Assembly (NCBI RefSeq): GCF_027497255.1
Contig: NZ_CP114903.1
Location: forward strand, 4,960,001-5,024,000
Source: Micromonospora sp. WMMD882
GTDB lineage: Bacteria; Actinomycetota; Actinomycetes; Mycobacteriales; Micromonosporaceae
Reading direction: 5' to 3'
DNA length: 64,000 bases
The notes under the pieces are model-generated. The model saw only the letters and a list, made by a program, of their open reading frames with translations, was not told the DNA's origin and made no database searches. The translations under genes were made by a program, and so were the position numbers. Position 1 is the first letter of the stretch, and every line of letters starts with the position of its first letter. Below are positions 5,638 to 34,764 of the stretch, in pieces.

Positions 5638-5649
5638 CAGCAGAGCCGC

Positions 5650-6306: not shown

Positions 6307-6312
6307 TAGCAT
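6307..6312 (+). promoter_or_regulatory. Possible -10 box of a leaderless rmlB transcript
   Basis: TAGCAT lies 7 bases before the ATG at 6320, and no ribosome-binding site is visible in between. This spacing is that of actinobacterial leaderless messages beginning at the start codon. No good -35 box can be pointed out. Confidence 0.4.
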
Positions 6313-6319
6313 GGGAATC

Positions 6320-12727: not shown

Positions 12728-14317
12728 CTAATCGCTGCCGAGCGCGGCGAGCAGCCGGCGGTGGTCGGTCTTGCCGTTCTGGTTGACCGGCAGCGCGTCC
12801 GTCACCCGCATCCGGCTCGGCGCCATGTAGGCCGGCATCGACTTCAGGCAGAACGCCAGGATGGCGCTCTCGTCGACCGGCGGCGCGTCGTCGGCGAGGA
12901 CCACGAACGCGGCCAGCTCCGGCTCGCGGTCGGGCGGGGCCACCACGACCGCGGCGGCCTCGGCCACGCCCGGGAACTCCAGCAGGCGGCGCTGCACCTC
13001 GGCCAGCTCGACCCGGTTGCCCCGGATCTGCACCTGGGAGTCCACCCGCCCGCAGAACCGCAGCTCGCCGTCGGCTCCCCGGTACGCCAGGTCACCGGTG
13101 CGCAGCACCCGCTGGCCCGAGCGCGGCTCGACCGGGTCGGGGACCAGCGCGGCGGCGGTCGCCTCCGGGTCGCCCCAGTAGCCGGAGAACAGCGCCGGGC
13201 TGCGCAGGTGCATCTCGCCGACCGTGCCGGGCTCCTCGACGGTCCGGCCCCGCTCGTCGACCACCAGCAGCTCCGCGCCGACGTGCCCCCGGCCGATGGA
13301 CAGCCGGTCCAGCTCCGCCGGCAGCGGGTTCGGCACGTCGGCGAAGCTGGCCGCCATGGACTCGGTCGCGCCGTAGCAGTTGACCAGCCGGGCCTGCGGG
13401 CGCAGCCGTTGCAGGTGGCGCAGTTCCGGCAACGGGAAGTCCTCGCCGCAGAACAGCACCCCGCGCAGGTCGGTGAGGGCGGCGACCTGGTCCGGGATGT
13501 GCCGCAGCGCCTGCCGCCAGATCGACGGAACCCCGTTGACGTGGGTGGCCCGGGTGGCGCGCAGGACCTTGACGAAGCGGGTCGGCCAGCGCAGCAGCGC
13601 CCGGGGCACCGGCGTGACGGCCGCGCCGCTGCCCAGGGCCAGACCGATGTCCAGCAGCGAGAAGTCGAACTGGAGCGGGGACGTCGACGCCACCCGGTCG
13701 CCTGGTCCGACGATGTTCTCGGCCAGCATGCCCCGGTAGAACGACACCACGGCCCGGTGACTCATCACCACGCCCTTGGGCCGCCCGGTCGTCCCCGAGG
13801 TGAAGATGATGTACGCGGTGTCGGTGGGGGTGACCGCCCACCGCCGTCGGGCCCGGGGCGCGGGCGGCGTCGGCACGTCGACTCCGCCGGGGCCGAACCA
13901 GCCGTGCCCGGGGGCGGCAGCGGGACCGGGCTCGGCGGCCGGCGCTCCGCCGGCGGTCAGGCACAGCGCCGGCTCCGCGAGCTCCGCGATCGCCGCCCGC
14001 CGCTCGGCCGGCATCTCCGGGCTGACCGGCACGAACGGCAGGCCCCGCGACGAGCAGGCCAGCAGCAGTGCGATCGCGTCCCGGGTGTTGTCGGAGACGA
14101 CCATGACCCGGTCGCCGACATCGAGGCCGTACCGGTCCAGGTCGGCGGCGTACCGGTCGGCGGCGGCGCGCAGCTCCCGGAAGGTCGTGGCGCGGACCCG
14201 GCCGTCGACGTACTCCACCACCGCCGGGTGGTCCGGCAGGTGCTCCGCCGCCGCCAGCAGGAACTCGTCGAACCGCTCGTCGGGCCGGTGCGGGACGGGG
14301 GATGGGTCAGCAGACAT
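12728..14317 (-). CDS. Free-standing amino-acid adenylating enzyme (prolyl-AMP-ligase-like), A1
   Basis: A 529-residue ANL-superfamily enzyme without C or T domains. Core motifs are in order: A3 IIFTSGTTGRPKGVV, a substrate-pocket loop PLQFDFSLLDIGLALGSGA, A5 NCYGATES, A7 RTGDLAYRGADGEL, A8 GRVDSQVQIRGNRVELAEV, and A10 NQNGKTDHRRL with the catalytic Lys. The pocket loop resembles, from memory, L-prolyl-AMP ligases of the PltF/CloN4 type. Together with the PCP (17581) and the dehydrogenase (16430) it makes a possible prolyl-to-pyrrolyl cassette. It is the last gene of the leftward operon. The substrate is inferred, not proven. Confidence 0.85.
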   Translation of the reverse strand: MSADPSPVPHRPDERFDEFLLAAAEHLPDHPAVVEYVDGRVRATTFRELRAAADRYAADLDRYGLDVGDRVMVVSDNTRDAIALLLACSSRGLPFVPVSPEMPAERRAAIAELAEPALCLTAGGAPAAEPGPAAAPGHGWFGPGGVDVPTPPAPRARRRWAVTPTDTAYIIFTSGTTGRPKGVVMSHRAVVSFYRGMLAENIVGPGDRVASTSPLQFDFSLLDIGLALGSGAAVTPVPRALLRWPTRFVKVLRATRATHVNGVPSIWRQALRHIPDQVAALTDLRGVLFCGEDFPLPELRHLQRLRPQARLVNCYGATESMAASFADVPNPLPAELDRLSIGRGHVGAELLVVDERGRTVEEPGTVGEMHLRSPALFSGYWGDPEATAAALVPDPVEPRSGQRVLRTGDLAYRGADGELRFCGRVDSQVQIRGNRVELAEVQRRLLEFPGVAEAAAVVVAPPDREPELAAFVVLADDAPPVDESAILAFCLKSMPAYMAPSRMRVTDALPVNQNGKTDHRRLLAALGSD

Positions 14318-14329
14318 CGGGGCTCCAGT

Positions 14330-14854
14330 TCAGCAGTTCGGGTCGGCGGGGATTGGAGCGGAGAGGGTGGGCACCGTGGTGTGGGGCTGACCGGTGACGA
14401 GCACCAGCGGCGGGGTGGGGGCGACCCGCAGGTCGCAGACGGTGCCCACGACCAGCGTGTGGTCGATGGCGGTGAGGGTTTCCCGTACCTGGCAGGTCAT
14501 CCGCACCGCGACGTCGGCGAGCACCGGGACACCGTCGTCCACGGTGTACGGCACGCCGTGGAACCGGTCGGCCGGCGGACCGGTGGCGAACCGGCGGACC
14601 AGGGCTTCCTGCCCGCTGGCCAGCACGTTCACGGCGAACCGGCCGGCGGAGAGGAGGTCGGCCAGGGTCCGGCCGCCGGTGTGGAAGGCCACCAGCACGG
14701 CCGGCGGGGCGACGGACAACGACATCAGCGAGGTGGTGGTGCAGCCGACCGGGCCGGCGGGACCGAGCGCGGTGGTCACCGCGACGCACTTGGCCAGGCG
14801 GGCCATCGCCTGACGGAACACGCGTTCGTCGACGGCCGCGTCAAGGCTGATCAT
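14330..14854 (-). CDS. Flavin reductase domain protein (NAD(P)H:flavin oxidoreductase)
   Basis: A 174-residue protein of the flavin_reduct/HpaC family: FRQAMARLAKCVAVTTA, then VGCTTTSLMSLSVAPPAVLVAFH, FAVNVLASGQEALVRRFAT and a C-terminal DHTLVVGTVCDLR. These enzymes supply reduced FMN or FAD to two-component monooxygenases or halogenases. No such partner is visible in the window, so it may serve the acyl-CoA-dehydrogenase-like enzymes or an enzyme encoded elsewhere. Start and stop are tied to its operon neighbours (ATGA overlap upstream, 12 bp to A1). Confidence 0.88.
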   Translation of the reverse strand: MISLDAAVDERVFRQAMARLAKCVAVTTALGPAGPVGCTTTSLMSLSVAPPAVLVAFHTGGRTLADLLSAGRFAVNVLASGQEALVRRFATGPPADRFHGVPYTVDDGVPVLADVAVRMTCQVRETLTAIDHTLVVGTVCDLRVAPTPPLVLVTGQPHTTVPTLSAPIPADPNC

Positions 14855-15828
14855 GGCGTACCTCTGTCCTGGTCGTGGCCGGCGGCGGCGCTCGCGCCTG
14901 CCGACCGTCCGGCGCTGGCGGTCGCGGTAGCGCGCTCCCGCTCGGTCAGTTCGATGAGCCGGTCGAACGCCTCGGCGACCACGCCGACCCGGCGACGCCC
15001 CCGGCGGGCGGAGTCGGCGGCGAACCGCAACGCCTTCGGCGCCTGGGCCCACTGCGCGGCCAGCTCGGGGTCACCGTGCCGGGCGAGCCGGTGGCCGTGG
15101 TGCCGCGCCGCGGCCCACAGGTCGTCGACGTGCCAGCTCAGGGCCCGCTCGTCGACGACGAACCGGTCACGCAGCGCCGCCAGCACCGCCGACGGGTCGG
15201 TCGACCACTCACCCGGCCAGCGCGCGTCGTCCCCGCCGCCGTCGGACGACCGTCCCCGGTCGCCGCCGGCCGGTCCGGGGCCGCCGCCGGTGGGGCGTAG
15301 CCACCGGTACCGGTCCGGGTCGTCCACGTCGGCGGGCGTGCCCAGGGCGTACGTGTCCCGGTTGGTCCCGGGCGGGTCGAGCCGGCCGAGCGGAGTCAGC
15401 GCGGCCCGCAGCTCGGCGTCGGAGAGCCAGCCCTCGAACGGCCGCTGCTCCCCGGCCGGCATCAGCGCGGTGAACCGGTCGCTGACCCGCCACCCCTCGT
15501 CGTGCCGCTCGCGCAGCACGAACCAGTGGGTGACCGGCTGCGACCGGTGGTGCGGCGACCAGGGCAGGTGGAAGGCGTTGCCGACGACGATCACCGAGCC
15601 CTCCTCGGCGAGCTGGTCGGCGAGCTCCGCCCGGGCGGTCGCCCAGTCGGCCACGCCGTGCCAGGCCAGGGACCCGTCGTCGATCCGGTCGTGGTGGGAG
15701 AAGGCCAACGCCCCGTCCGGGGCGTCGAACCGGACCCACAGCCGTACGGCGTCGGCGAGCCGGTCGGCGGCGGCCGGGCCGAGGTGGTCCACCAGGGCGG
15801 TGGTGTAGCAGGAGAGTGGGGGTGTCAT
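14851..15828 (-). CDS. C39-peptidase/BtrH-like putative acyltransferase 1
   Basis: A 325-residue protein I assign by fold pattern rather than by a close relative. Cys7 (PLSCYTTALVDHLG) stands where C39-type cysteine enzymes and the BtrH N-domain have their nucleophile. A GSVIVVGNAFHLPW strand then leads to THWFVL (His101) and a following Asp117 (WRVSDRF), giving a Cys-His-Asp order. The C-terminal half is helical. BtrH moves an acyl group from a carrier protein to an amine in butirosin biosynthesis; a similar carrier-to-amine transfer is inferred here. The start at 15828 overlaps the upstream stop (ATGA). A peptidase or a cyclising enzyme remains possible. Confidence 0.6.
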   Translation of the reverse strand: MTPPLSCYTTALVDHLGPAAADRLADAVRLWVRFDAPDGALAFSHHDRIDDGSLAWHGVADWATARAELADQLAEEGSVIVVGNAFHLPWSPHHRSQPVTHWFVLRERHDEGWRVSDRFTALMPAGEQRPFEGWLSDAELRAALTPLGRLDPPGTNRDTYALGTPADVDDPDRYRWLRPTGGGPGPAGGDRGRSSDGGGDDARWPGEWSTDPSAVLAALRDRFVVDERALSWHVDDLWAAARHHGHRLARHGDPELAAQWAQAPKALRFAADSARRGRRRVGVVAEAFDRLIELTERERATATASAGRSAGASAAAGHDQDRGTP

Positions 15829-16433
15829 CGGCGCTCCTCGTCCCACGCGCACGCCACGGGCACGTCCGCCAGGTCACGTACCTTGTGCCACCGCCGCCCG
15901 TGCCAGCGGCCCGTGTCCGCGTCCGGCGGCACGTCGATCGTCCAGGGCAGCCCGCCGATCCCGGCGCCGTCGACCTTGACGCAGGCCTCCTGGACGGTCC
16001 AGATCTCGGCGAACGCCCGAGCCCGCTGCCGTTCGGGCAGCCGGGCCAGCCCGGTCAGGTGCCGGGCGGCGCACCGGCGCAGCAGTGGCTCGCTGACCGG
16101 TTCCGGTGGGGTCTGTACGTCCACCCCGACCCGGCGGTCCGTGGCCACGCACACCGCCACGTGCCCGCCGTCGTGCGAGAGGTTGACGCCGAGCCGGGGC
16201 CAGCCGGCGAGGACGGGTTTCCCGTTCCCGGCGGCGACCAGCGGCGCGTCGGCAGCCGCCGGGGCGACCCGGGCCAGCAGCGCCCGCAGCAGCGCCCGGC
16301 CGCCGAGGAGCTGCCGGGTCCGCCAGGGCGGCGTGCCCCGGGCGGCGAGCCGGTCGGCCGGGGTCACCGGTTCGTCGACGGTCTCGGCTCCGACCGCCAC
16401 CCACACCTGCGGGTGGACCTCCCGCGCCCTCAC
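15825..16433 (-). CDS. 4'-phosphopantetheinyl transferase, Sfp type
   Basis: A 202-residue PPTase starting at a GTG that overlaps the dehydrogenase stop. Family motifs: GVNLSHDGGHVAVCVA, the Mg-binding RRVGVDVQ, and EIWTVQEACVK, equivalent to the WxxKEAxxK helix with the first Lys replaced by Gln. It would convert the three free carrier proteins of this cluster to their holo forms by attaching phosphopantetheine from CoA. A dedicated PPTase inside the operon agrees with carriers whose serine motif is unusual. Confidence 0.88.
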   Translation of the reverse strand: MRAREVHPQVWVAVGAETVDEPVTPADRLAARGTPPWRTRQLLGGRALLRALLARVAPAAADAPLVAAGNGKPVLAGWPRLGVNLSHDGGHVAVCVATDRRVGVDVQTPPEPVSEPLLRRCAARHLTGLARLPERQRARAFAEIWTVQEACVKVDGAGIGGLPWTIDVPPDADTGRWHGRRWHKVRDLADVPVACAWDEERR

Positions 16434-17584
16434 CGGCCCGGCTCCACGGGTGGCTCCGGGGCCGGAGACCGGTCCAGGTCGGCCAGGACGTCGGCGGTCG
16501 CGCCGGCCACCACGGACAGCACCACCTCGGTGGTGCCGCCGCCGATGCCGAACAGCGCGGCCTGGGCGCGTAGCCGCTGCGGCCCGTCGCTGCGGAAGCC
16601 GTACGCGCCCTGGAGGTGGGCGCACTCGTCGAGCACCCGCTCCACGGTGCCGGCGGCGCTGGCCTTCAACATCGCCGCCGCCGTGGCGTCCCGCCGGGTG
16701 GCGACCGCGTCGGCGAGGCTCTCGGTGAGCGCCTGGTGCTGCCGGGCGCGCAGCAGCGCGGCGGCGTACCGCTGGCGGATGCCCTCCAGGTGCCAGAGCG
16801 TGCCGTCGCCGTACCGACGGTCCTGGAGGTGCCGCCAGGTCTCGGTCAGCACCCGCCGGCACAGCCCGACCGCCCACAACGCCCCGGCCAGCCGTTCCAC
16901 CGCGATGTGCGCGGCGAACCCGCTCAGCCCCCGGCCGACGCCGCCGACCACGTGCTCCCGGCCCAGCCGGACCCGGTCGAAGAACAGGTGACCGGCGCCG
17001 GCGCCGTCGAACAGGTCGGTGTCGGCCGGCTCGGCACGCACCCCGGGCGCGTCGGCCGGCACCAGCACCCAGGTGAAGTTGGTGAAGTGCGGGCCGGGTC
17101 GGTGCCGGGCGAGGACCAGGACCGCGTCGCACGCGGTGGCGTTGGTGATCCACCGTTTGACGCCGCTGACCTCCACGTGGTCGTCGCGCAGGGTGACCTC
17201 GGTGGTCAGCGAGGTCAGGTCGCAGCCGGCCCCGTCGTCGGTGGCGGCGAGCGCCACCACGGCGTCCCCGCGCAGCGCCGCCGCCAGCGTCCGGGCGGCC
17301 GGCCCGTCACCCCCGGCCAGCAACGGCAGGCAGGTCGCCAGCGGCACGCACACCGCCAGGGTGGTCCCCAGCGGGCAGCGCCGGTCGACGGCGGTGAGCA
17401 GCGCGCCCAGCCCGGCCGGGTCGACGCCGCGACGCGGGTCGCCGTCCCGGTACACCCGGGCGAGCCGGCCCGCCGCGCCCAGCGTCCGCCACACGTCCGG
17501 GCCGGTCGCGTCGGACGCGAGGTCGTCGAGCATCGGGTACGCGTCCCGCGTGACCCGGTCGCCCAGCAGGGCGGGCGCGGTCAT
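16430..17584 (-). CDS. Acyl-CoA-dehydrogenase-like enzyme acting on a carrier-bound substrate, ACD1
   Basis: A 384-residue flavoprotein of the acyl-CoA dehydrogenase fold: VSGVKRWITNATACDAVLVLA in the middle beta domain, a C-terminal helical bundle with HLQGAYGFRSDGPQRLRAQA and FGIGGGTTEVVLSVVAG. The position that carries the catalytic Glu in medium-chain dehydrogenases is Gly here, as in types that keep the base elsewhere. It is directly coupled to the PCP gene (ATGA). In prodigiosin, pyoluteorin and aminocoumarin pathways the same trio oxidises prolyl-S-PCP to pyrrolyl-S-PCP. Start at 17584: the longer upstream frame would run through the PCP gene. Confidence 0.82.
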   Translation of the reverse strand: MTAPALLGDRVTRDAYPMLDDLASDATGPDVWRTLGAAGRLARVYRDGDPRRGVDPAGLGALLTAVDRRCPLGTTLAVCVPLATCLPLLAGGDGPAARTLAAALRGDAVVALAATDDGAGCDLTSLTTEVTLRDDHVEVSGVKRWITNATACDAVLVLARHRPGPHFTNFTWVLVPADAPGVRAEPADTDLFDGAGAGHLFFDRVRLGREHVVGGVGRGLSGFAAHIAVERLAGALWAVGLCRRVLTETWRHLQDRRYGDGTLWHLEGIRQRYAAALLRARQHQALTESLADAVATRRDATAAAMLKASAAGTVERVLDECAHLQGAYGFRSDGPQRLRAQAALFGIGGGTTEVVLSVVAGATADVLADLDRSPAPEPPVEPGR

Positions 17585-17868
17585 GCCGGGACCCTCCGGT
17601 CCTCGTGGGCGGCCTCCCCGGCGTGCTCCCGGTCGCCGCCACCGGCCCGCGTCACGGCCTGCCACAGGCTGCCCGCGGTGGCGAAGGTGGCGTCGTTCAG
17701 GTCCTCGTCGGGCAGCGAGACACCCAGCTCGTCCTCGATGGTGAAGAGCAGGTCGATGGCCTTCATCGAGTTCAGTCCGAGGTCGTGCAGCCGGGACTCC
17801 TCGGTGATCGGGCGGCCGTTGAGGTAGGGCAGGAACGGCACGAGCAGGTTCTGGAACGTCTGGTTCAC
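17581..17868 (-). CDS. Free-standing peptidyl/acyl carrier protein 1
   Basis: A 95-residue carrier protein starting at GTG. The attachment site is Ser34 in LHDLGLNSMKAIDLLFTIEDELG; the residue before Ser is Asn, not the usual Asp. The helical pattern and acidic helix II are normal for carriers. About 20 residues after the fold are low-complexity. It is coupled by GTGA and ATGA overlaps to the acyltransferase-like gene before it and ACD1 after it, so it likely carries the amino acid loaded by A1 and oxidised by ACD1. Confidence 0.88.
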   Translation of the reverse strand: MNQTFQNLLVPFLPYLNGRPITEESRLHDLGLNSMKAIDLLFTIEDELGVSLPDEDLNDATFATAGSLWQAVTRAGGGDREHAGEAAHEDRRVPA

Positions 17869-18752
17869 GGGGTCTCCAACAGTTCGGGCCGGGTCGCGAA
17901 GACGTCCCGGTCGGCGGTGAGGGCTGCGGCCAGGTCGGGCAGCAGCGCGCCGGGGGCGGGACGGCCCCGCTCCACCCGGCGCAGGGCGATGAAGGCGGCG
18001 GCGGTGAGCTGGTCCCAGCGGCGCAGGTGGGCGTCCGCGTCCAGCGGCTCACCCCGGTGGACGCGGTACGCCGCGTGCAGCCGCCGGGCCCGGGTCATCA
18101 GCCATGTCTCGGCGGTGAGCTGCCGCAACGCCGCCAACCGGTCGGCGTGCCGGGCGTACGCCTCGACGTAGTCGTCGGGATCGTCGAGCAGCGCCGACGG
18201 CGCGGGCGGCCGGTACGACCCGGCGACCCGGCAGACCGCGGCGACGGAGACGGCGGGCAGCTCGGCCCAGGGCAGCCGCCACTGGCCGGGGCGGGCCGGC
18301 CCCCACGCGGTCTCGTTGTCGTAGGCGTCGCCGACCAGCGCCTCCCCGTCGTCGCTGGCCACCAGGAAGCTGTGCTCCATGTGGGCGTGGCCCCGGTACG
18401 GCAGCCATGGCATGTGGTACGTGTCGGCGACGGCGTACAGCACCGAGGAGCGTTCGGCGAGCGCCCGCAACGCGTCCGGTCCCAGGTCGTGTCGGCTCTC
18501 GACGACCAGGCCGACCTGCCGGGCGCTCCCGGTCAGGTGGGCGTCCACCGGCGGGTCCACCGTGGGCAGCCCGTCCGGGCCGGGGCGGGGCCGGAACCGC
18601 AGGGCCGCGCCGAGGGCCAGGTGCCGTCCCGGCTCGCCCCACCGGTCGGCCAGCACGGCCAGGTTGACCTGGATGCAGTCGAGCAGGTCGGTCCGGATGC
18701 CGGCCGCCCCGGTCCCCGCGCCGGCCGGCGCGCTGGCGACGGCGGTGGTCAT
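17865..18752 (-). CDS. C39-peptidase/BtrH-like putative acyltransferase 2
   Basis: A 295-residue paralogue in pattern of the protein at 14851. Cys26 sits in LLDCIQVNLAVLADRWG, the strand VLYAVADTYHMPWLPYRGH leads to MEHSFLV (His127), and Asp142 follows in EALVGDAYDN. This resembles the BtrH_N motif set (Cys, lPw-H-H, D). The C-terminal ~130 residues are helical, with the TAETWLMTRARRLHAAYRVHRGE segment. It starts at 18752, overlapping the TrpB2-like stop, and its own stop overlaps the carrier start. It probably takes an acyl group from carrier 1 or carrier 2. Evidence for catalysis is motif-level only. Confidence 0.6.
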   Translation of the reverse strand: MTTAVASAPAGAGTGAAGIRTDLLDCIQVNLAVLADRWGEPGRHLALGAALRFRPRPGPDGLPTVDPPVDAHLTGSARQVGLVVESRHDLGPDALRALAERSSVLYAVADTYHMPWLPYRGHAHMEHSFLVASDDGEALVGDAYDNETAWGPARPGQWRLPWAELPAVSVAAVCRVAGSYRPPAPSALLDDPDDYVEAYARHADRLAALRQLTAETWLMTRARRLHAAYRVHRGEPLDADAHLRRWDQLTAAAFIALRRVERGRPAPGALLPDLAAALTADRDVFATRPELLETP

Positions 18753-20068
18753 CGGGGCGCTCCCACCGGGTTCAGGCCGGCGACCGCGCGGGCCAGCGCC
18801 TCGTCGGACGGGGCGACGTCCTCCACGCCGCCGGCGAGGAAGTGCTCGTACGCGCCGAGGTCGAGGTAGCCGTGCCCGCTGACACAGACCAGCACGCCGT
18901 GCCGGGCCTGGTCGGAGGCGGCGATCTTCGCGGCGGCGGCCAGCGCGTGCCCCGACTCGGGGGCGGGCAGGACGCTCTCGTGCCGGGTGAGCAGCCGCCC
19001 GGCGTCGAGCGCGTCGGCCTGGCTGACCGCCATCGCGTCCACGTCCCCGGTGTGCCGCAGCGCCGAGACGAGTTTCGCCGCGCCGTGGAACCGCAGGCCG
19101 GCGGTGTGCGCGTCGGGGATCTGGTAGTCGCTGCCGATGGTGTACATGGCCTCCATCGGGCCACTGCCGGTGGCGTCGGTCTTGTCGTACGCGTAGACGC
19201 CCCGGGTGAGTTTCGGGGTGCTGCTGGACTCGGCGGCGACCAGCCGGGGCCCCTCGACACCGGTGGACCGCGCCTCGGCATGGAACGGCAGCGCGATGCC
19301 GCCGAAGTTGGAGCCCGCGCCGACGCAACCGACCACCGTGTCGATCCGGGCGTCGAGGTCGGCGAGCTGGTCGGCCGCCTCCAGGCCGATCACCGACTGG
19401 TGCAGGATGCTGTACGTCTCCCCGCTGCCGATGCAGAACGCCACCCCGTCGTGGCTGGCGGCGTACTCGACGGCCTCGCCGATGGCCAGCGAGAGGCTGT
19501 TGCCGGCGGCCAGGTCCTCCCGGGTGGAGACCTTCGTCATGCCGCTGGGGCTGGTGTGCACCTCGGCGCCGAGCATCCGCATCAGCACCCCCCGGTACGG
19601 CTTGCGGCGCAGGCTCGACTCGACCATGAACACCCGGCAGCGCAGCCCGAACAGCGCGCACGCCGCCGCCATGGCGGTGCCCCACTGGCCGGCGCCGGTG
19701 CCGGTGACCAGCTCGCGAACGCCGGCCCGCTGGTAGTAGTACGCCTGGGCGAGGGCGGTGTTGAGCTTGTGGCTGCCGGAGATGTTGACGCCCTCGTTCT
19801 TGACGTAGATGGGCACCCGCGCGCCGACCGCCTCCTCGAAGCCCCTGGCCCGCCACAGCGGGGTGGGCCGGTACTGCCGGTACCGCTCGACCACCGGCTC
19901 GGGGATGTCCCAGTACTCGCGTTGGGAGACGCTCTGCCGGACCAGCTCCACCGGCAGGTTGATCTTCACTTCGCCGTCGGCGCTGACCGGGGTGACGTCC
20001 GGCGGCAGCGGCTCGGCCAGGTACGGCAGGACGCTGCGCCAGCGGGTGGGCGCCGGGCCGGTCATCAC
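18749..20068 (-). CDS. TrpB2-like PLP-dependent enzyme
   Basis: A 439-residue fold-type II PLP enzyme of the TrpB2 (tryptophan-synthase-beta-like) class. RPTPLWRARGFEEAVGARVPIYVKNEG precedes GVNISGSHKLNTALAQ with PLP Lys101, the phosphate loop is VGCVGAGSNFGG, and a C-terminal VCVSGHGYLDLGAYE replaces the usual TrpB end. The length matches TrpB2 rather than TrpB1 (~400). No trpA is near. TrpB2-type enzymes perform beta-replacement of serine-type substrates; here it is translationally coupled to a carrier protein and an acyltransferase-like gene, so it may build a non-protein amino acid, possibly on a carrier. The substrate is unknown. Confidence 0.85.
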   Translation of the reverse strand: MMTGPAPTRWRSVLPYLAEPLPPDVTPVSADGEVKINLPVELVRQSVSQREYWDIPEPVVERYRQYRPTPLWRARGFEEAVGARVPIYVKNEGVNISGSHKLNTALAQAYYYQRAGVRELVTGTGAGQWGTAMAAACALFGLRCRVFMVESSLRRKPYRGVLMRMLGAEVHTSPSGMTKVSTREDLAAGNSLSLAIGEAVEYAASHDGVAFCIGSGETYSILHQSVIGLEAADQLADLDARIDTVVGCVGAGSNFGGIALPFHAEARSTGVEGPRLVAAESSSTPKLTRGVYAYDKTDATGSGPMEAMYTIGSDYQIPDAHTAGLRFHGAAKLVSALRHTGDVDAMAVSQADALDAGRLLTRHESVLPAPESGHALAAAAKIAASDQARHGVLVCVSGHGYLDLGAYEHFLAGGVEDVAPSDEALARAVAGLNPVGAPR

Positions 20069-20343: not shown

Positions 20344-20385
20344 GGTCTCCCTTTCCAGGGGTGGGTGGGGGCGGACGGACGCAGG

Positions 20386-25340: not shown

Positions 25341-25361
25341 CCGCACCCCCCGGGAGCAGAC

Positions 25362-28307: not shown

Positions 28308-29605
28308 GAGACCCCCATGACGCGCTCTGGTACAACTCGATCACCGCCGAGGCGGTCGCCGACGGCCGGATCGCCCGGACCGCCGTCACCCAGGGCAAGG
28401 GCTGCTGGGTCCAGGACGCCGCCGGCACGTGGTACCTGGACGCGCGGGCCGGGATGTGGAACACCACTCTCGGCTACCAGGCGGAACGGGTGGTCGAGGC
28501 GATGGCCGCCCAGCTGCGCCGGCTTCCCGTCGCCCAGGTGATCCGGTACGAGGAGCCGCCCGAGATCGGCCTGGAGTACGCCCGCAGGCTCGTCGCCACC
28601 CTGCCCGACCCGTTGAACCACGTCCGGTTCGGCAGCACCGGCTCGCAGATGACCAGCGCGGCCGTGCTGCTGTCCCGGTTCGTGCGCAAGGTGCGCGGTG
28701 AGACCGGCCGGACGAAGGTGCTCGCGTTCACCAACGGCTACCACGGCACCGGCGGCATCGCCAGCGCGCTGACCGGCGAACGGCAGGCGCACGCCCTCCA
28801 GGCCCCGCTCGCCCCGGACGTGCACCACGTCAAGCCGTGGAACGTCGACGCGCTGGAGACGATGGTGGCCCGGCACGGGCCGGAGAAGATCACCGCGATC
28901 ATCGTCGAGCCGATCATGGGCACCGACGTGCTGGCCGCCCCCGACGGCGCGCTGCGCCGACTGCGCGACCTGTGCGACCGGCACGACATCCACCTGATCG
29001 CCGACGAGGTGACCACCGGATTCGGGCGCACCGGCGCGATGTCGGTGATGGCCGCCCAGGGCGTCCTGCCGGACCTGCTGATCCTCGGCAAGGGCATCAC
29101 CGCCGGCTACTTCCCGCTGGCCGCGCTGGTCGCCACCGACGCGATCTTCGACGAGGCGATCTCCCGACCGGAGTACGTCTTCCCGCACGGCTGCACCGCC
29201 GACGGTCACCCGGTCGGGATGGCCGCCGGGCTGGCCGTCCTCGACGAGCTGACCGACGGGTCGGTCTTCGCGAACGTCCGGGAGCTCGGCGAGCGTATCC
29301 GGGGGCGGCTGCGGGACCACGCCGCCACCGTTCCGCTGATCCACGACGTACGCGGCACGGGGTTGATGATCGGCGTCGAGCTGCGCGACGGCGACGAACG
29401 GCTGGGCGCGCAGACCATGACGGCGGTCCGGCGGGCCTGCCAGGACGCCGGTCTGCTGCTCACCACCACCAACAACACGGTGGTGCTGATGCCGCCGCTG
29501 GTGCTGACCGGGGCCGAGGCCGACGAGCTGGTCGACCGGCTGGTCCAGGGGTTGACCGGGGGCCCGTCCCGGCCGACCGGGGCGAGCGGATCGGATCCGG
29601 CGTGA
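28301..29605 (+). CDS. Class III (omega) PLP aminotransferase
   Basis: A 434-residue fold-type I enzyme: ALWYNSITAEAVADGRIARTAVTQGKGCWVQD, FGSTGSQMTSAAVLLSRF, FTNGYHGTG, LIADEVTTGFGRTG and the PLP Lys264 in LILGKGITAGYFPLAALV. Such enzymes move amino groups at terminal carbons or act on beta-amino acids, and this one could form or remove a side-chain or beta amine. The GTG at 28301 overlaps the A2 stop and has a GGAGG-type site 8 bases upstream. It is followed by two ATP-grasp ligases in the same coupled string. Confidence 0.85.
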   Translation: MLRDPHDALWYNSITAEAVADGRIARTAVTQGKGCWVQDAAGTWYLDARAGMWNTTLGYQAERVVEAMAAQLRRLPVAQVIRYEEPPEIGLEYARRLVATLPDPLNHVRFGSTGSQMTSAAVLLSRFVRKVRGETGRTKVLAFTNGYHGTGGIASALTGERQAHALQAPLAPDVHHVKPWNVDALETMVARHGPEKITAIIVEPIMGTDVLAAPDGALRRLRDLCDRHDIHLIADEVTTGFGRTGAMSVMAAQGVLPDLLILGKGITAGYFPLAALVATDAIFDEAISRPEYVFPHGCTADGHPVGMAAGLAVLDELTDGSVFANVRELGERIRGRLRDHAATVPLIHDVRGTGLMIGVELRDGDERLGAQTMTAVRRACQDAGLLLTTTNNTVVLMPPLVLTGAEADELVDRLVQGLTGGPSRPTGASGSDPA

Positions 29606-30861
29606 CCGGGCGCGGGACGGTCGCCGTCGTCGACGGGTTCGCCTCGGCGAACCGGCTCACCGAGGCGTTCCGGGCGGCCGGGTACGACAGCGTACGGGTG
29701 CAGAGCACCCGGGAGATCCCCGAGCACTACCGGGCCGATCTCGACCTGGACCGGTACGTGGCGAACGTTCTGCACCGCGGGGACCTGGCCGCGACCCTGG
29801 CCGCGTTGGCCCGGTACCGGCCGGTGGCCGTGATCCCCGGCGCCGAGCAGGGCGTCGAGCTGGCCGACGCGCTGGGCGAGGCGGCCGGGCTCCCCGGCAA
29901 CGGCACCGCCCTCAGCTACGCCCGGCGGACCAAGGACGCCCAGGTGGCGGCGGTGGCGGCGGCCGGGCTGCCGACCGCCCGGCAACTGCCCGTGAAGGAC
30001 GCCGACGAGCTGGCGGCCTGGCACCGGGAGGTCGGCGGCCGGGTGGTGGTGAAACCGATCCGCAGCGCCCGTAACGACGGGGTGTCGTTCTGCGACACCC
30101 CGGAGCAGTCGGTCGCCGCGTACGAGCGGCTCCGCTCGGCGGTCAACAACTTCGGCCACCGCAACGAGGGCGTCGTGGCGCAGGAGTACCTGACCGGCGT
30201 CGAGTACGTGGTCAACACGGTGAGCTGGCGCGGCGGGCACCGGGTGACCGACATGTGGCGGTACACGAAGATCAACGTCAACGGGCTGCGGGACCGGATC
30301 AACGGCATCCGCTCGCTGCCCCCGGCCGACGACCGCTGGGCCGGGCTGCGCCGGTACGCGGTCGCCGTGCTGGACGCGCTGGACGTCCGGTACGGCCCGG
30401 CCCACCTGGAGATCGTGCTCACCCCGGCCGGTCCCCGGCTGGTCGAGGTGGGCGCCCGGCTGTGCGGAGAGGACGTGGCCCGGTACGCCGCGCTGGCCAC
30501 CGGCGAGTCCCAGGTGGACCGGACGGTCCAGGCGTACACCGACGGCGACGCCTTTCTGGCCGAGCTGGACGCCCCCTACCGGCGCGACGACCACGCCGCC
30601 ATGGCGTTCCTCGCCTCGCCGGTCGAGGGCCGGCTCCGGGCGTACCCGCTGCTCGACCAGATCACCCGGCTGGACAGCTACCGGGGGCACTCGGTCAAGG
30701 TGGCCCCCGGCCAGTGGCTGCGCCGCACCGTCGACGACAGCTCCGAGCCGCTCTCCGTCGGGCTGGCGCACCCGGACGCGGCGACCGTGGAGAAGGACCT
30801 GCTGACCATCTGCCACCTCGACGGACACGGCTTCTACGAACTGGAGGACGCACGTGGCTGA
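29602..30861 (+). CDS. ATP-grasp ligase A (amino-acid/peptide ligase type)
   Basis: A 419-residue ATP-grasp enzyme starting at the GTG of a GTGA overlap; longer upstream frames run through the aminotransferase. Features: an N-terminal Rossmann-like domain (VAVVDGFASANRLTEAFRAAG), the ATP-grasp core with GRVVVKPIRSARNDGVSF, VAQEYLTGVEYVVNTVS and the metal-binding end LRLVEVGARLCGED-like segment (PRLVEVGARLCGED). The family activates a carboxylate as acyl phosphate and couples it to an amine. It is a close paralogue of the next gene. Substrates unknown; it probably makes an amide bond in the product. Confidence 0.85.
   Translation: MTGRGTVAVVDGFASANRLTEAFRAAGYDSVRVQSTREIPEHYRADLDLDRYVANVLHRGDLAATLAALARYRPVAVIPGAEQGVELADALGEAAGLPGNGTALSYARRTKDAQVAAVAAAGLPTARQLPVKDADELAAWHREVGGRVVVKPIRSARNDGVSFCDTPEQSVAAYERLRSAVNNFGHRNEGVVAQEYLTGVEYVVNTVSWRGGHRVTDMWRYTKINVNGLRDRINGIRSLPPADDRWAGLRRYAVAVLDALDVRYGPAHLEIVLTPAGPRLVEVGARLCGEDVARYAALATGESQVDRTVQAYTDGDAFLAELDAPYRRDDHAAMAFLASPVEGRLRAYPLLDQITRLDSYRGHSVKVAPGQWLRRTVDDSSEPLSVGLAHPDAATVEKDLLTICHLDGHGFYELEDARG
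30061..30123 (+). repeat. 63-bp near-identical segment, copy in ligase A
   Basis: Differs at one base from 31310-31372 in ligase B and occupies the same place in both proteins (about residue 153), coding the RSARNDGVSFCDTPEQSVAAY block of the ATP-grasp core. Confidence 0.9.
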
Positions 30862-32107
30862 CCGGCGCGTGATCGCACTCGTCGACCCGTACGGCGCGGT
30901 GAACAAGCTGGGCGTCGCGTTGCGGGAGGCGGGCCTGGACTGCGTACGGGTGCAGTCCACCCCCGAGCCGCCCCCGTCGTACGGCCCCGCCGACCTGACC
31001 GGGTACACCGACAACCTGGTCCACGACGGCGACTTCGACCGGATGGTGGCCCGGCTGGCGGCGCTGCGACCGGTCGCCGTGGTGGTCGGCAGCGAGCTGG
31101 GCGTGGAGTTCACCGACCGGCTCAACGAGACGCTCGGCCTGCCCGGCAACGGCACCGCGTTGAGCGAGGCCCGCCGGGACAAGTTCGTCCAGATCGAGGC
31201 GTTGCGGGCGGCCGGGCTGCCCACCACCCGTCAACTGCGGGTCACCGACCCGGACGAGTTGGCGGCCTGGCACCGGGAGATCGGCGGCCGGATCGTGGTC
31301 AAGCCGGTCCGCAGCGCCCGCAACGACGGGGTGTCGTTCTGCGACACCCCGGAGCAGTCGGTCGCCGCGTACCACCGCGTGCTGTCCCGGCACAGCGTCT
31401 TCGACGTGCCCAACGAGGGCGTCGTCGCGCAGGAGTACCTGCGGGGCGTCGAGTACGTGGTGAACACCGTCAGTTGCCAGGGGCGCCACCGGATCACCGA
31501 CATGTGGCAGTACCAGAAGATCACCGTCAACGGCATGCGGGACCGGATCAACGGCATGACCTCCGTCCCGCCGGACGCCCCGGAGTACGCGACCCTCGCC
31601 GGGTACTCGTACGCGGCGCTCGACGCGCTGGGCATCCGGATCGGCCCGGTGCACCTGGAGGTGATGCTGACCCGGGACGGCCCACGGCTGGTCGAGGCCG
31701 GCGCCCGACTCTGCGGGGCCGACGTCGCCCGGTACGCGGTGCTGCTGACCGGCGAGTCCCAGATCGACCGGACCGCCCAGGCGTACGCCGACCCGGAGCG
31801 GTTCGTGGCCGAGCACCGCAAGCCGTACGCGCTGGACAACCACGGCGCGATGGCGTTCCTCGCCTCCCCGTTCGAGGGCGTGCTGCGCGGCTACCCGTAC
31901 CTGCGTCTGATCGAGGAGCTGGAGAGCTGCCAGGGCGTGACGCAGCGGTTCCGTCCCGGCGAGCGGCTGGTGCGGACGATCGACGACGAGGGCGAGCCGG
32001 TGACGGTCGGGCTGATCCATCCGGACCTCTCCGTCGTACGGCACGATTTCGCGACGGTGTGCTACCTGGACGGTCCCGGTTTCTACGACGTCGAACCTGG
32101 GCAGTGA
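30854..32107 (+). CDS. ATP-grasp ligase B, paralogue of ligase A
   Basis: A 417-residue ATP-grasp enzyme colinear with its upstream neighbour: VIALVDPYGAVNKLGVALREAG, GRIVVKPVRSARNDGVSF, VAQEYLRGVEYVVNTVS, and PRLVEAGARLCGAD for metal binding. It starts at a GTG 8 bp inside ligase A. A central 63-bp stretch is almost identical between the two genes, but the N-terminal domains and C-termini differ, so the pair may have split substrates after duplication. Two ligases in series suggest a product with at least two ATP-grasp-made amide bonds. Confidence 0.85.
   Translation: MADRRVIALVDPYGAVNKLGVALREAGLDCVRVQSTPEPPPSYGPADLTGYTDNLVHDGDFDRMVARLAALRPVAVVVGSELGVEFTDRLNETLGLPGNGTALSEARRDKFVQIEALRAAGLPTTRQLRVTDPDELAAWHREIGGRIVVKPVRSARNDGVSFCDTPEQSVAAYHRVLSRHSVFDVPNEGVVAQEYLRGVEYVVNTVSCQGRHRITDMWQYQKITVNGMRDRINGMTSVPPDAPEYATLAGYSYAALDALGIRIGPVHLEVMLTRDGPRLVEAGARLCGADVARYAVLLTGESQIDRTAQAYADPERFVAEHRKPYALDNHGAMAFLASPFEGVLRGYPYLRLIEELESCQGVTQRFRPGERLVRTIDDEGEPVTVGLIHPDLSVVRHDFATVCYLDGPGFYDVEPGQ
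31310..31372 (+). repeat. 63-bp near-identical segment, copy in ligase B
   Basis: Partner of 30061-30123 (62 of 63 bases equal). Identity drops quickly on the 3' side and more slowly on the 5' side, which looks like tandem duplication with later local gene conversion. Confidence 0.9.
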
Positions 32108-32191
32108 GCCGCTACGCGCCGCGCCCGCCCGGTCACCGGGGCGGGGGCCGGGCGAGGGGTCGGCGTGACCCAGGGAGCATGAGGGAGCACC

Positions 32192-33457
32192 GTGGCACAG
32201 GGTTGGCGTAGGGATTTCCGGTTCGTCTGGGCGGGGGAGACCGCCTCGCTCGTCGGCACCCAGGTGTTCCAGTTGGCCATGCCGCTGACCGCGGTGCTGA
32301 CCCTGGACGCCACGCCGGGGCAGCTCGGCCTGATCGGGGCGGCCACCTTCGCCCCGTACCTCTTCTTCGGGCTGGCCGCCGGGGTGCTGGTGGACCGGTG
32401 GCAGCGACGCGGCGTGCTGATCATGTCCAGCATCGGGCAGGCGGTGGCGATCGGCGGCATCCCGGTCCTGGCCGCCCTCGACCGGCTGACCTTCACCTGG
32501 CTGTTCACCCTGGCGCTGCTCGCCGGGGTGGGCCGGGTGTTCTTCAACATCGCCTACCGGTCCTACCTGCCGGCGATCGTGCCGCCGGAGCGGCTCACCG
32601 GGGCCAACTCCCGGCTGACCGCCAGCGAGTCGGTGGCGGAGATCGGCGGCCCGGGGCTGGGCGGTCTGCTCGTGCAGATCGCCGGGGCGCCGTTCGCGTT
32701 GATCGTCGACGCGGTCTCCTACGTGGCGTCGGCGTTCGGTTTCTCGGCGGTACGCCAGCGGGAGAAGCCGGTCAGGGCCGACCCGACCCCGCTGCGCGCC
32801 CAGGTAGCCGAGGGGTTCCGGTTCACCTTCGCCAACCCGTACCTGCGGGCCTTCCTCGGTGAGGCGGCCAGCTACAACCTCTGCTGGCAGGTGGTGCAGA
32901 CCATCCTGGTGCTGTTCGCCGTCCGGGAGCTGGGCATGAGCCCGGGCACCCTCGGCCTGGTCATGTCGATCGGCGCGATCGGCGCGCTGCTGGGCGCGGC
33001 GGTCACCGGGCGGGTCGCGCACCGGGTCGGCCTCGGTCGTACCCTGCTGGCCGCCGCGGTGATCGGCGACGTCGCCCCGCTGCTGCTGCCGGTCACCGAG
33101 CGCGGGACCTGGGCCGCCCCGATCTTCGCCGTCGCGTTCTTCATCCAGGGCTTCGGGATCACCGCCTGCAACGTGCACACCATGACGGTCCGGCAGACCA
33201 TCACCCCGGACTCGCTGCTCGGCCGCACCAACGCCGCGTACCTGTTCGTGGCGCAGGGCGTCAAGCCGGTCGGCGCGCTGCTCGGCGGCTGGCTCGGCAA
33301 CGTCGCCGGGCCCCGGACCACGCTGGTCATCGGGACCATCGGGCTGCTGAGCACCAGCCTGTTCCTGATCCTCTCGCCACTGCGGAAGGTCCGGACGCTG
33401 AGCAGCATCATCCCCGCCGACCGCAGACCGGAGCCGGAGCCGCTCCCCACCCGCTGA
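32192..33457 (+). CDS. MFS exporter, EntS/macrolide-efflux type (12 TM)
   Basis: A 421-residue membrane protein with about 12 helices. FRFVWAGETASLVGTQVFQLAMPLTAV and the motif-A loop GVLVDRWQRRGVLIMSS are typical of the MFS_3/EntS group that exports siderophores and antibiotics. The GTG start follows GGGAGCACC. It is the last gene of the rightward operon, 84 bp after ligase B, and is the best candidate for exporting the cluster's product. Confidence 0.9.
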   Translation: MAQGWRRDFRFVWAGETASLVGTQVFQLAMPLTAVLTLDATPGQLGLIGAATFAPYLFFGLAAGVLVDRWQRRGVLIMSSIGQAVAIGGIPVLAALDRLTFTWLFTLALLAGVGRVFFNIAYRSYLPAIVPPERLTGANSRLTASESVAEIGGPGLGGLLVQIAGAPFALIVDAVSYVASAFGFSAVRQREKPVRADPTPLRAQVAEGFRFTFANPYLRAFLGEAASYNLCWQVVQTILVLFAVRELGMSPGTLGLVMSIGAIGALLGAAVTGRVAHRVGLGRTLLAAAVIGDVAPLLLPVTERGTWAAPIFAVAFFIQGFGITACNVHTMTVRQTITPDSLLGRTNAAYLFVAQGVKPVGALLGGWLGNVAGPRTTLVIGTIGLLSTSLFLILSPLRKVRTLSSIIPADRRPEPEPLPTR

Positions 33458-33531
33458 CCGGGCCGCCGGCCCGCCGTCATCTCGCGCGCGGGCCGACCCG
33501 GCGGCGTCCCGGGCCGGGCCGCCGCCCGCCG
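33458..33531. terminator. Convergent intergenic region with short GC hairpins
   Basis: A CGGGCCG / CGGCCCG stem at 33459-33473 directly follows the exporter stop, and a related GGGCCG-rich sequence recurs near 33510-33530. The two operons converge here. Termination is plausible but the hairpin is small. Confidence 0.4.
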
Positions 33532-34764
33532 TCACCCGGCGCGGACCCGGAGCGCCCGGCCGGCCGCCGCCAACGCCGCCCGGCATTCGTCGACCCGGTC
33601 ACCGACCGCGATCGCGTACGCGATCCGGCCGTCCATCAGCATCCGGGGCGGCGGCGACTTCACCTCGCCCGGCCCGGCCAGCGGCCCGTACGCCACGATC
33701 TGCGGCGGCAGGCCGGCGGGATCGAAGGTGATCTCCTCGACGACGGTGTCGTCCCGGGCGGGGTGGTAGAAGCGGATCGCCGCCGGCCGCCGCCGGCTGG
33801 CCGCCTGCGCCGGCGGACGGCGCCCGCACGCCACCGCCGCCGCGGCCAGGCCCAGGTCCGCGCCCCCGCCCAGCAGGTTCAGGTACGGGATCAGCCCGCC
33901 CCCGATCCGGGCGTTGACCTCGATGATCTTCGGCCCCTGCCGGGTCAGCCGGATCTCGGTGTGCGTCACGCCGTCGGTGAAGCCCAGCGCGGCGTGGGTG
34001 TCCCCGACCGCCTTGCGCAGGGTCGGGTCGTGCCAGAGCGGGTCGGCGGGATCGACCACGTGCCCCATCTCCTCGAAGTACGGGGGGTAGCCGAGTTCCT
34101 TGCGGGCCAGGCACACCGGGGTCACCTCACCCTGGAACACCACCGAGTCGACGCTGATCTCCGGCCCCTCGGCGTACTCCTCGACCAGGATGTTGCGGTC
34201 GTGCCGGGGCAGCTCCGGGGCCATCCGCCAGCTCTCCTCGGTGAAGTTCACGAACCGCCGTACCTCGGCCTCGTCGGTCGCCCGGACCACCCCGAAGCTG
34301 CCCGCCATCGCCCGGGGCTTGAGCACCACCGGGAAACCGATCGCGCGCGCCGCGGCCAGCGCCGTCGCGCCGTCGGACGCCAGCCGGGAGGCCGGCTGCG
34401 GGACCTGGTACGTGTCCAGGGCGGCGCGGGTGAGGTGTTTGTCCCGGCATCGCTCGATCACGGTCGGGTCGGCGGGGAGGCCGAGCGCCACCGCCACCCG
34501 CGCCGCCTGGACGATCCACGTCTCGTCCCAGCAGATCACCCCGTCGACCGGGGCGCGGTCGGCCAGCCCGGTGGCGGCCCGGACGAGGTCCCCGGTGTCG
34601 GCGAGGTCGGGCACGACGGTCCACCCGTCCAGGTACGGCAGCTCCCAGGTCGGTGGTTCGGTCAGGACCAGGTGGACCCGGTACGCGGGAGCGATCGAGC
34701 GGAGCAGGTACTCCCGGTAGGCGCGCAGACCGGGAGTCAGGACGAGCAGGTGCGGCTTGATCAT
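33532..34764 (-). CDS. ATP-grasp ligase C (carboxylate-amine ligase)
   Basis: A 410-residue ATP-grasp enzyme: an N-terminal MIKPHLLVLTPGLRAYREYLLRS domain, GFPVVLKPRAMAGSFGVVRA, ILVEEYAEGPEISVDSVVFQGE, and the Mg-binding PKIIEVNARIGGGLIPYL, followed by a C-terminal lid domain. The TPGL-x-AYREYLL start and EVNAR-x-GG motif resemble L-amino-acid ligases and carnosine-synthase-like enzymes. It is only distantly like ligases A and B. It is transcribed toward the exporter, with its own promoter in the 172-bp gap at 34765-34936. It is probably a third amide-bond former of the cluster or a resistance enzyme. The start at 34764 begins the conserved domain. Confidence 0.83.
   Translation of the reverse strand: MIKPHLLVLTPGLRAYREYLLRSIAPAYRVHLVLTEPPTWELPYLDGWTVVPDLADTGDLVRAATGLADRAPVDGVICWDETWIVQAARVAVALGLPADPTVIERCRDKHLTRAALDTYQVPQPASRLASDGATALAAARAIGFPVVLKPRAMAGSFGVVRATDEAEVRRFVNFTEESWRMAPELPRHDRNILVEEYAEGPEISVDSVVFQGEVTPVCLARKELGYPPYFEEMGHVVDPADPLWHDPTLRKAVGDTHAALGFTDGVTHTEIRLTRQGPKIIEVNARIGGGLIPYLNLLGGGADLGLAAAAVACGRRPPAQAASRRRPAAIRFYHPARDDTVVEEITFDPAGLPPQIVAYGPLAGPGEVKSPPPRMLMDGRIAYAIAVGDRVDECRAALAAAGRALRVRAG

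Follow-up and report, generated by a model that had tools for sequence, protein, structure and literature searches.

A gene cluster of Micromonospora sp. WMMD882 that pairs a predicted macrolactam-type 3-aminobutyrate cassette with a TrpB-like enzyme lacking Glu109, apart from any polyketide synthase

We analysed a 64,000-nucleotide stretch of Micromonospora sp. WMMD882 (bases 4960001-5024000 of its 6.37-Mb single-contig genome), hereafter referred to as the window; coordinates below count from its first base. The subject is a biosynthetic gene cluster within it, hereafter the unit, whose parts were identified by gene calling and by Pfam and NCBIfam scans of the window's reading frames. The original prediction for this DNA had described two divergent, tightly coupled operons of free-standing enzymes at 12728-34764. 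Both operons and all the claimed types of parts were found there, one part, AT1, being reassigned below. The genes are as follows (PLP, pyridoxal phosphate; ACAD, acyl-CoA dehydrogenase; MFS, major facilitator superfamily).

11642..12643, plus strand: LysR-type regulator, outer border of the unit (PF00126/PF03466; kept beside A1)
12728..14317, minus strand: A1, IdnL1-like beta-amino-acid adenylating enzyme, predicted to take 3-aminobutyrate (PDB 5JJQ match, pocket code, clade)
14330..14854, minus strand: flavin reductase (PF01613)
14851..15828, minus strand: BH2, Cys-His-Asp transferase-like protein (invariant C7/H101/D117)
15825..16406, minus strand: 4'-phosphopantetheinyl transferase, PPTase (PF01648; start approximate)
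16430..17584, minus strand: ACAD1, ACAD-like, with the Glu of the isovaleryl-CoA/prolyl type kept (PF02770/PF00441, alignment)
17581..17868, minus strand: CP3, carrier protein (homologues in macrolactam loci at 32-44%)
17865..18752, minus strand: BH1, Cys-His-Asp carrier-dependent acyltransferase-like protein (invariant triad; AlphaFold model matches)
18749..20068, minus strand: TrpB-like PLP enzyme, Glu109 to Gly (NF009057, 510 bits; TGTGAGQWG)
20065..20343, minus strand: CP1, carrier protein (PF00550; best NCBIfam model AmcB, below cut-off)
20386..21651, minus strand: ProA-like (glutamate-5-semialdehyde dehydrogenase) reductase (NF001221, TIGR00407)
21644..22399, minus strand: thioesterase, TE (PF00975; start approximate)
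22771..24093, plus strand: KamA-type radical S-adenosylmethionine (SAM) aminomutase, IdnL4-like (TIGR00238 below cut-off; 2A5H match)
24090..25340, plus strand: AT1, class-I PLP enzyme, IdnL3-like, predicted beta-glutamate beta-decarboxylase (PF00155, genomic context)
25362..25622, plus strand: CP2, carrier protein (PF00550)
25619..26797, plus strand: ACAD2, ACAD-like without the usual catalytic Glu, possible flavin monooxygenase (alignments, DszC match)
26790..28307, plus strand: A2, VinM/IdnL7-like amide-forming adenylating enzyme (6AKD/8K4R matches; code; clade)
28301..29605, plus strand: AT3, class-III omega-aminotransferase (PF00202)
29602..30861, plus strand: AG1, ATP-grasp ligase (NF005543 over cut-off; dapdiamide synthase model second)
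30854..32107, plus strand: AG2, ATP-grasp ligase (NF005543 over cut-off)
32192..33457, plus strand: MFS exporter (PF07690)
33532..34764, minus strand: AG3, ATP-grasp ligase, outer border of the unit (PF13535; kept next to the MFS gene)

By gene calling, the two operons start from a gap of about 370 bases (22400-22770). The leftward operon runs from TE through ProA, CP1, TrpB, BH1, CP3, ACAD1, PPTase, BH2 and flavin reductase to A1, and the rightward one from KamA through AT1, CP2, ACAD2, A2, AT3, AG1 and AG2 to the MFS exporter, beyond which AG3 lies on the opposite strand. With our own start assignments, some of them approximate, adjacent genes share 4-8 bases at 13 of the 18 within-operon junctions. 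All three carriers have the serine motif, CP1 and CP2 being recognised by Pfam and CP3 by sequence. In agreement with the original prediction, no modular nonribosomal peptide synthetase (NRPS) or polyketide synthase (PKS) gene was found among the window genes scanned, which were a part of its open reading frames (ORFs).

The whole unit, in the same gene order, recurs in Streptomyces candidus DSM 40141 (L001/L090) at 64-87% identity. It is complete in one genome of the window's own genus (G156; L109/L110), lacks AG2 in S. seoulensis A01 (L083/L084), and in a further genome of the same genus (G051; L111) matches over the whole stretch read, from AG3 through the flavin reductase. Such synteny across Streptomyces and the window's genus shows that the co-occurrence is not due to chance, and the expected co-conservation of the two operons is borne out. 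The LysR gene at 11642-12643 belongs to the unit; it stands beside A1 in S. candidus, S. seoulensis, G156, S. carminius and the class II sister clusters (see below), with identities of 51% in S. seoulensis, 56% in G156 and, over the last 30 residues, 77% in S. candidus. We place the borders at about 11642 and about 34764, since the flanking SGL and glycoside hydrolase (GH43/GH6) genes had no match in the other loci compared. A search of 300 relatives with the TrpB-like protein (E <= 1e-150) gave 11 genomes with a match, the window's included. ProA, CP1, TrpB and BH1 are adjacent in 11 of the 11, three of which hold this unit and eight a sister class; G104, G096 and G136 were read over only 4.3 kb each.

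A1 matched PDB entries 5JJQ (624 bits), 7DQ5/6M01 and variants (589-595 bits) and 5JJP (585 bits), the next entry scoring at most 305; these are IdnL1, an enzyme for (3S)-3-aminobutyrate, HitB and CmiS6 (PMC11253843). The ten-residue code of A1, DFLSLCCAAK, equals the IdnL1 code, read off the alignment, except for one Ser-to-Cys change. Leu220, which sets the pocket size of IdnL1 (PMC11253843, in part), has a Leu counterpart in A1 and in 19 of the 20 other A1 rows, the exception being L015. In the tree, A1 groups with its counterparts from macrolactam loci such as L002 and L023, where PKS genes lie beside KamA and AT1; this clade has 23 rows and a support of 100. A2 matched 6AKD and 8K4R best among single-domain entries, the former being IdnL7 (PMC11253843, in part), and groups with macrolactam A2s in a 36-row clade (support 100). 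Its code, DPFSLALVTK, keeps the equivalents of IdnL7 Ala285 and Thr318; the code does not single out one amino acid for A2. Both clades come from quick tree building, with support from the Shimodaira-Hasegawa-like approximate likelihood ratio test only and some long branches. The residue tables used here and below left out homologues covering less than 80% of the query, as well as ACAD2, A2 and A1 rows below 40%, 37% and 50% identity, respectively. Some rows are one genome fetched twice, and the TrpB table was reduced to the window and 14 other clusters.

KamA and AT1 keep the same company. Among the best 80 of 586 loci kept from a KamA scan of named genomes, an AT1 gene was present in 21 of the 24 loci with KamA at 61% identity or more and in none of the 56 at 59% or less; of the three AT1-less loci in the former group, two are short contigs and the third is L015. 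KamA scored 117 bits with TIGR00238 (cut-off 199) and matched PDB entry 2A5H. Both lysine-binding Asp positions of lysine 2,3-aminomutase (LAM) are changed in KamA, one as read by alignment and the other by eye past the alignment end. Owing to these changes, and because KamA is accompanied by AT1 and A1 just as it is in macrolactam loci, we dropped lysine 2,3-aminomutase chemistry of the streptothricin, negamycin or tambromycin kind. In the incednine pathway, (S)-3-aminobutyrate is formed from beta-glutamate by the decarboxylase IdnL3, and IdnL4 is the likely glutamate 2,3-aminomutase; a VinM-type enzyme puts Ala, Ser or Gly on the beta-amine, and VinK then delivers the unit to the PKS (PMC11284099). 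We read KamA, AT1 and A1 as this macrolactam 3-aminobutyrate starter cassette, in which AT1 at 24090, listed as an aminotransferase in the original prediction, is predicted to be a beta-glutamate beta-decarboxylase instead. The match of the three proteins to IdnL4, IdnL3 and IdnL1 makes carrier-bound (S)-3-aminobutyrate the probable entry substrate.

The original prediction had combined pyrrole (PltF/E/L) with butirosin logic. This found no support, A1 being IdnL1-like, A2 VinM/IdnL7-like and neither proline-like; the resemblance of A1, A2, KamA and AT1 to macrolactam enzymes shifts the interpretation to a PKS-free 3-aminobutyrate cassette. Compared with incednine-type clusters (IdnL1/L3/L4/L7, VinK/L/M), KamA, AT1, A1, A2 and CP3 look like the same cassette. 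Those clusters, however, have a PKS and VinK, instead of which the unit has ACAD-like, TrpB, ProA and ATP-grasp enzymes. VinK (PF21124) was absent from the genomes of the window, S. candidus and S. seoulensis (0/3) and present in the two macrolactam control genomes, those of L002 and L023 (2/2). No PKS domain was found in the unit or in the window genes scanned, to which the PKS search was confined. Macrolactam clusters also use a VinJ-type amidohydrolase to take off the protecting amino acid; the one such hydrolytic enzyme recognised in the unit is a thioesterase. For want of VinK and a PKS, the unit falls outside the macrolactam class, and the 3-aminobutyrate cassette seems to be re-used outside a macrolactam pathway.

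The TrpB-like protein belongs by sequence to the TrpB2 family and lies far from the CysK and SbnA models. It shares the PLP lysine of the GSHK motif with its closest solved relatives, 4QYS, 6HTE and 6HUL (305-290 bits), to which it was aligned. It differs from the TrpB2 synthases in having TGTGAGQWG for TETGAGQWG, with Gly at Glu109 (Salmonella numbering; Glu is kept in all three solved enzymes), and in the carrier and AMP ligase genes nearby. Gly was found in 15 of the 15 clusters in the table, and in 16 of 16 when the NBC_00704 plasmid (SGTGAGQWG) is counted; the window genome's own TrpB retains Glu (AETGAGQHG). Among 396 genomes of the phylum, exact DNA patterns with the leading Thr detected the Glu form in 236 and the Gly form in two, those of the window and G393. 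The G393 copy (L123, 9341-14357) represents a distant class, in an operon of Gly TrpB, acyl-CoA dehydrogenase, AMP ligase and hydrolase, and homologues from this class have Glu in 9 of 10 cases.

Thirteen records of a plasmid collection had a TrpB-like match, 11 with Glu and two with Gly (NBC_00704 and Streptomyces angustmyceticus). Both Gly copies lie close to carrier-protein and AMP-ligase genes; on S. angustmyceticus plasmid p1 (L135, 11532-16877) the neighbours of the Gly TrpB are a carrier protein, a flavoprotein and an AMP ligase. An aminodeoxychorismate synthase gene also lies near this copy. Around the eight Glu copies with annotated neighbours, the gene table, itself incomplete, lists neither a carrier nor an AMP ligase nor an acyl-CoA dehydrogenase over 4-5 kb. 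A Tsukamurella plasmid TrpB, with a gene like beta-ketoacyl synthase III (KAS III) nearby, keeps Glu and thus serves as a control. Altogether, 17 of 18 Gly copies, two distant ones included, have a carrier nearby (none was seen in G393), an AMP-forming ligase is in the cluster in 15 of the 15 read far enough, and these clusters nearly always hold a carrier plus an ACAD or another flavoprotein. Such AMP ligase and carrier company suggests a carrier-bound partner for the enzyme. Glu109 activates indole through binding of its N1 (PMC9512447, in the part available). The same residue is changed in engineered TrpBs: E104G strips a side chain essential for native reactivity and gives radical coupling with inverted stereochemistry (PMC12135140, in part), and Tm9D8 E105G is among variants active on phenol and naphthol (PMC12909874, in part). 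Unlike the cluster enzyme, these variants (E104G, Tm9D8 E105G/TmTyrS6) are engineered and act on free small-molecule partners.

The two ACAD-like proteins were compared at the two catalytic Glu positions of the family. ACAD1 has Glu at the helix position of the isovaleryl-CoA and prolyl-carrier type in 20 of 20 rows. ACAD2 lacks it at the helix position in 21 of 21 rows and at the C-terminal position in all 20 readable rows, row L112 ending before that position. The flavin monooxygenase DszC is among the matches of ACAD2, though outscored by ordinary acyl-CoA dehydrogenases. The ProA-like enzyme passed NF001221 (344 bits, cut-off 289) and fell just under the cut-off of TIGR00407 (302 bits vs 317). 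AG1 and AG2 exceeded the cut-off of NF005543 (PRK07206), with the model of dapdiamide synthase DdaF second; they lie far under the equivalog cut-off of the latter (163 and 197 of 840 bits). The presence of two Cys-His-Asp acyltransferase-like proteins, claimed from the outset, holds as regards the triads, which are invariant for BH1 (C26/H127/D142) in 31 of 31 rows and for BH2 in 10 of 10, some rows in both sets duplicating genomes. BH1 and BH2 resemble each other weakly (28-30%), and Pfam/NCBIfam scans covering the BH2 frame gave no match. The BH1 AlphaFold model (mean predicted local distance difference test score 90.3) matches the fold of the carrier-dependent Cys transferases AziU3/U2, CtaG and CcbD (E 6e-8 to 5e-4), the last of which was solved with a carrier domain according to its PDB entry title. 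The matches are modest, with TM-scores of only 0.52-0.56, root-mean-square deviations of 6.5-10 and 9-20% sequence identity. What survives of the butirosin link is this shared logic of Cys-His-Asp carrier-dependent transferases.

Sister clusters vary both ends of the unit. Class II, known from S. harbinensis and Streptomyces sp. ADI96-02, combines the 3-aminobutyrate cassette with A2, the two ACADs, BH1, BH2, PPTase, TrpB, ProA, CP1 and flavin reductase, and a short-chain dehydrogenase/reductase (SDR) gene lies next to ProA. It carries NRPS genes (C-A-T in both genomes, C-T-TE in S. harbinensis); TE was matched in S. harbinensis only, and neither AT3 nor AG1-3 was matched in the stretches read. 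Class III (eight of the 300 relatives, five of them read at length, and the NBC_00704 plasmid) keeps TrpB, ProA, CP1, BH1 and the ACADs, with a VinN-like ligase and a PLP decarboxylase in place of KamA, AT1 and A1. In G123 the ligase has VinN as its best PDB match (3WVN, 369 bits) and the decarboxylase is of the ornithine/diaminopimelate type; an ORF of the same length and order is found in the other four genomes. NBC_00704 has the same order, its decarboxylase being annotated as a type III PLP enzyme. In published systems, pairs of a VinN-like ligase and a decarboxylase yield carrier-bound 3-aminoisobutyrate or beta-alanine. Since no glutamate mutase was found among the class III ORFs scanned, which were a part of the total, beta-alanine is the better guess for class III. 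Where class III has a front end like that of vicenistatin/fluvirucin (VinN/FlvN and VinO/FlvO), the window uses the glutamate/3-aminobutyrate version, with no PKS in the unit. Beside the class III cluster of L115 (G053), genes for a HalD-family halogenase and an argininosuccinate synthase were seen at 4175-6164.

Class IV comprises six loci (L004, L007, L008, L011, L013 and L019) in which the cassette is joined by the two ACADs, BH1 and matches to extra ATP-grasp ligases; A2 is present in five of the six, the L013 contig coming to an end, and TrpB, ProA and CP1 were unmatched in the stretches read. In L011 there are, in addition, a carbamoyltransferase and a condensation domain that stands free. 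Streptomyces carminius (L006) has the same core, with no TrpB or ProA in the stretch read; a dehydroquinate-synthase-like gene adjoins it at 3534-4730. Sister clusters thus exchange both the front end (VinN-like ligase and decarboxylase) and the back end (small NRPSs). The front-end swap suggests that the core acts on beta-aminoacyl carriers, and it seems to work on a carrier-bound beta-amino acid from any source.

Taken together, the sequence comparisons favour, with a probability of roughly 0.6, a unit that makes a small exported amino-acid-derived pseudopeptide from carrier-bound (S)-3-aminobutyrate; the small modified pseudopeptide of the original prediction, made by a free-standing carrier/ATP-grasp cluster, thus remains probable. 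In our scheme, the supply and loading of 3-aminobutyrate follow homology, and we infer every later step. KamA would convert glutamate to beta-glutamate, AT1 would decarboxylate this to (S)-3-aminobutyrate and A1 would load it onto a carrier, probably CP3, a sequence that we regard as very likely. A2 may put an amino acid on the beta-amine or load a second carrier, for which the odds are about even. It is equally a matter of even odds that ACAD1 desaturates the acyl thioester to a beta-enamine (3-aminocrotonyl-carrier), with ACAD2 and the flavin reductase oxygenating an intermediate. The alpha-carbon of 3-aminocrotonyl-carrier would be a nucleophile much like indole C3. We tentatively suggest, at somewhat less than even odds, that the Glu109-less TrpB couples this carbon to the aminoacrylate from serine or activated serine. 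The product, HOOC-CH(NH2)-CH2-C(=C(CH3)NH2)-CO-S-carrier, would formally be a 4-substituted (branched) glutamyl-5-thioester. More doubtfully, the ProA homologue might reduce this glutamyl-like thioester to a glutamate-semialdehyde analogue whose aldehyde AT3 aminates, comparable to glutamate-to-ornithine chemistry; the SDR of sister clusters would stand in for AT3. BH1, BH2 and TE would move or release carrier-bound acyl groups, and AG1-3 would ligate the amino acid(s) to partners before export. The scheme would place most of the unusual enzymes, and A2, ACAD2 and BH2 less clearly. As a general statement, that a natural Glu109-less TrpB clade makes C-C bonds between serine aminoacrylate and a carrier-bound beta-enamine thioester, which a ProA homologue then reduces, is speculative and on balance improbable.

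Several observations weigh against this reading. KamA lies under the curated cut-off of every aminomutase model listed. Arg334, the KamA counterpart of LAM D293, is conserved in 87 of 87 rows, and we dropped it as a test of glutamate specificity since these rows include the more distant KamA proteins that lack AT1. The equation of AT1 with IdnL3 and of KamA with IdnL4 leans on genomic context, and activity of IdnL4 in vitro is described as not yet seen (PMC11284099, in the part available). A2 departs from the IdnL7 code in having Pro for Cys217. ACAD1 could oxidise another carrier-bound substrate, the ProA-like enzyme could act on a phosphate or another thioester, and the Glu109-less TrpB could take an N-, O- or S-nucleophile, use activated serine, or form no C-C bond. 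G393, having been found by the Gly-motif search itself, is no independent test of the Gly rule. L006 and class IV, which in the stretches read keep the core without TrpB and ProA, make the steps of these two enzymes look like add-ons. L015 (Streptomyces sp. man185) has the ACADs, BH1 and KamA but lacks AT1; this, together with its different A1 code (DLFALSSSCK), means that it perhaps uses another beta-amino acid.

Three other explanations were considered. If proline were loaded, converted to pyrrole through PltE-like oxidation and built into a pseudopeptide with parts of the butirosin type, the best NCBIfam model of ACAD1 would make sense, as this is the prolyl-carrier dehydrogenase ProlPCPDhRedW, whose type of Glu is kept; the carrier-dependent Cys transferase fold of BH1 would fit too. 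The score, however, is 77 bits against a cut-off of 650, the PltF/PltE/PltL pathway needs a proline-activating enzyme, which neither the IdnL1-like A1 nor the IdnL7-like A2 resembles, and the same ACADs occur in clusters with a front end seemingly suited to beta-amino acids, so that we consider this route very improbable. Less remote, though still quite unlikely, is N-oxidation, in which ACAD2 and the flavin reductase hydroxylate the beta-amine of 3-aminobutyryl-carrier, the ring closes to 3-methylisoxazol-5-one, and TrpB joins C4 of the isoxazolone to serine, giving isoxazolinonyl-alanine for peptides made by ATP-grasp ligases; TAN-950A is an isoxazolinonyl-alanine like this product. The loss of both usual Glu residues in ACAD2, its DszC match among others, the flavin reductase gene in this unit, class II and NBC_00704, and the suitability of a Glu109-less TrpB for a stabilised carbon nucleophile all speak for it. 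Yet class IV has ACAD2 but no TrpB in the stretches read, and ProA, CP1 and AT3 are left without a role.

The TrpB-like enzyme might also make a 2,3-diaminopropionate- or cysteine-like residue by N, O or S beta-replacement, with no C-C bond, while ProA and AT3 make an unrelated diamine. Fold type II PLP enzymes of this kind commonly catalyse such replacements, and loss of a residue tied to indole activation (PMC9512447, in part) need not mean another carbon nucleophile. The TrpB2 assignment, remote from CysK and SbnA, and the AMP ligases, carriers and flavoproteins around the Gly copies point the other way, making this alternative unlikely, if the least so of the three. Azaserine-type hydrazine chemistry was set aside, as no hydrazine-forming gene was recognised.

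As the original prediction had supposed, the pathway does not appear to be a described one, no account of this gene set having been found in the open-licence PMC literature. The Pbo cluster of Pseudomonas syringae pv. phaseolicola (phaseolotoxin) has a LAM-like radical SAM enzyme, ATP-grasp, ACAD-like and AMP-binding proteins, a carrier and an MFS protein (PMC8473136, in part). Compared by gene table, it has, unlike the unit, ketosynthase genes and a 2-oxoglutarate dioxygenase, and no TrpB or ProA appears in the parts of the description covered (PMC8473136). We therefore rejected it as the same set; as far as that description goes, it shares some part types only.

Elsewhere in the window, an NDP-hexose 2,3-dehydratase gene and a sugar nucleotide dehydratase/epimerase gene (2009-3787 and 6287-7318) at the left edge are deoxysugar genes and suggest another cluster, for a glycosylated product. 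Two CHAT-domain proteins, a TPR protein, an HATPase protein and a subtilase form one block at 47052-59780, which looks like a protease-based signalling or defence block. ARAGORN called a selenocysteine tRNA (tRNA-SeC) at 32512-32596 inside the MFS exporter gene and a tRNA-Ala at 3624-3701 inside the dehydratase gene; both calls are probably false positives.

The preferred reading, 3-aminobutyrate entry followed by TrpB coupling, would, if true, amount to a new PKS-free route to branched glutamate- or ornithine-type amino acids, in which both the beta-amino acid (3-aminobutyrate or beta-alanine type) and the finishing module (ATP-grasp or NRPS) can be exchanged. The unit points to a use of the macrolactam starter cassette for beta-amino acids outside any polyketide system, with swappable front and back ends. 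In its carrier clusters, the naturally Glu109-less TrpB family bears the very change that engineers use to free TrpB from indole. Should the coupling be confirmed, it would provide a genetically encoded way of making C-C bonds in unusual amino acids and a means of tracking down several more cluster classes (here I-IV).

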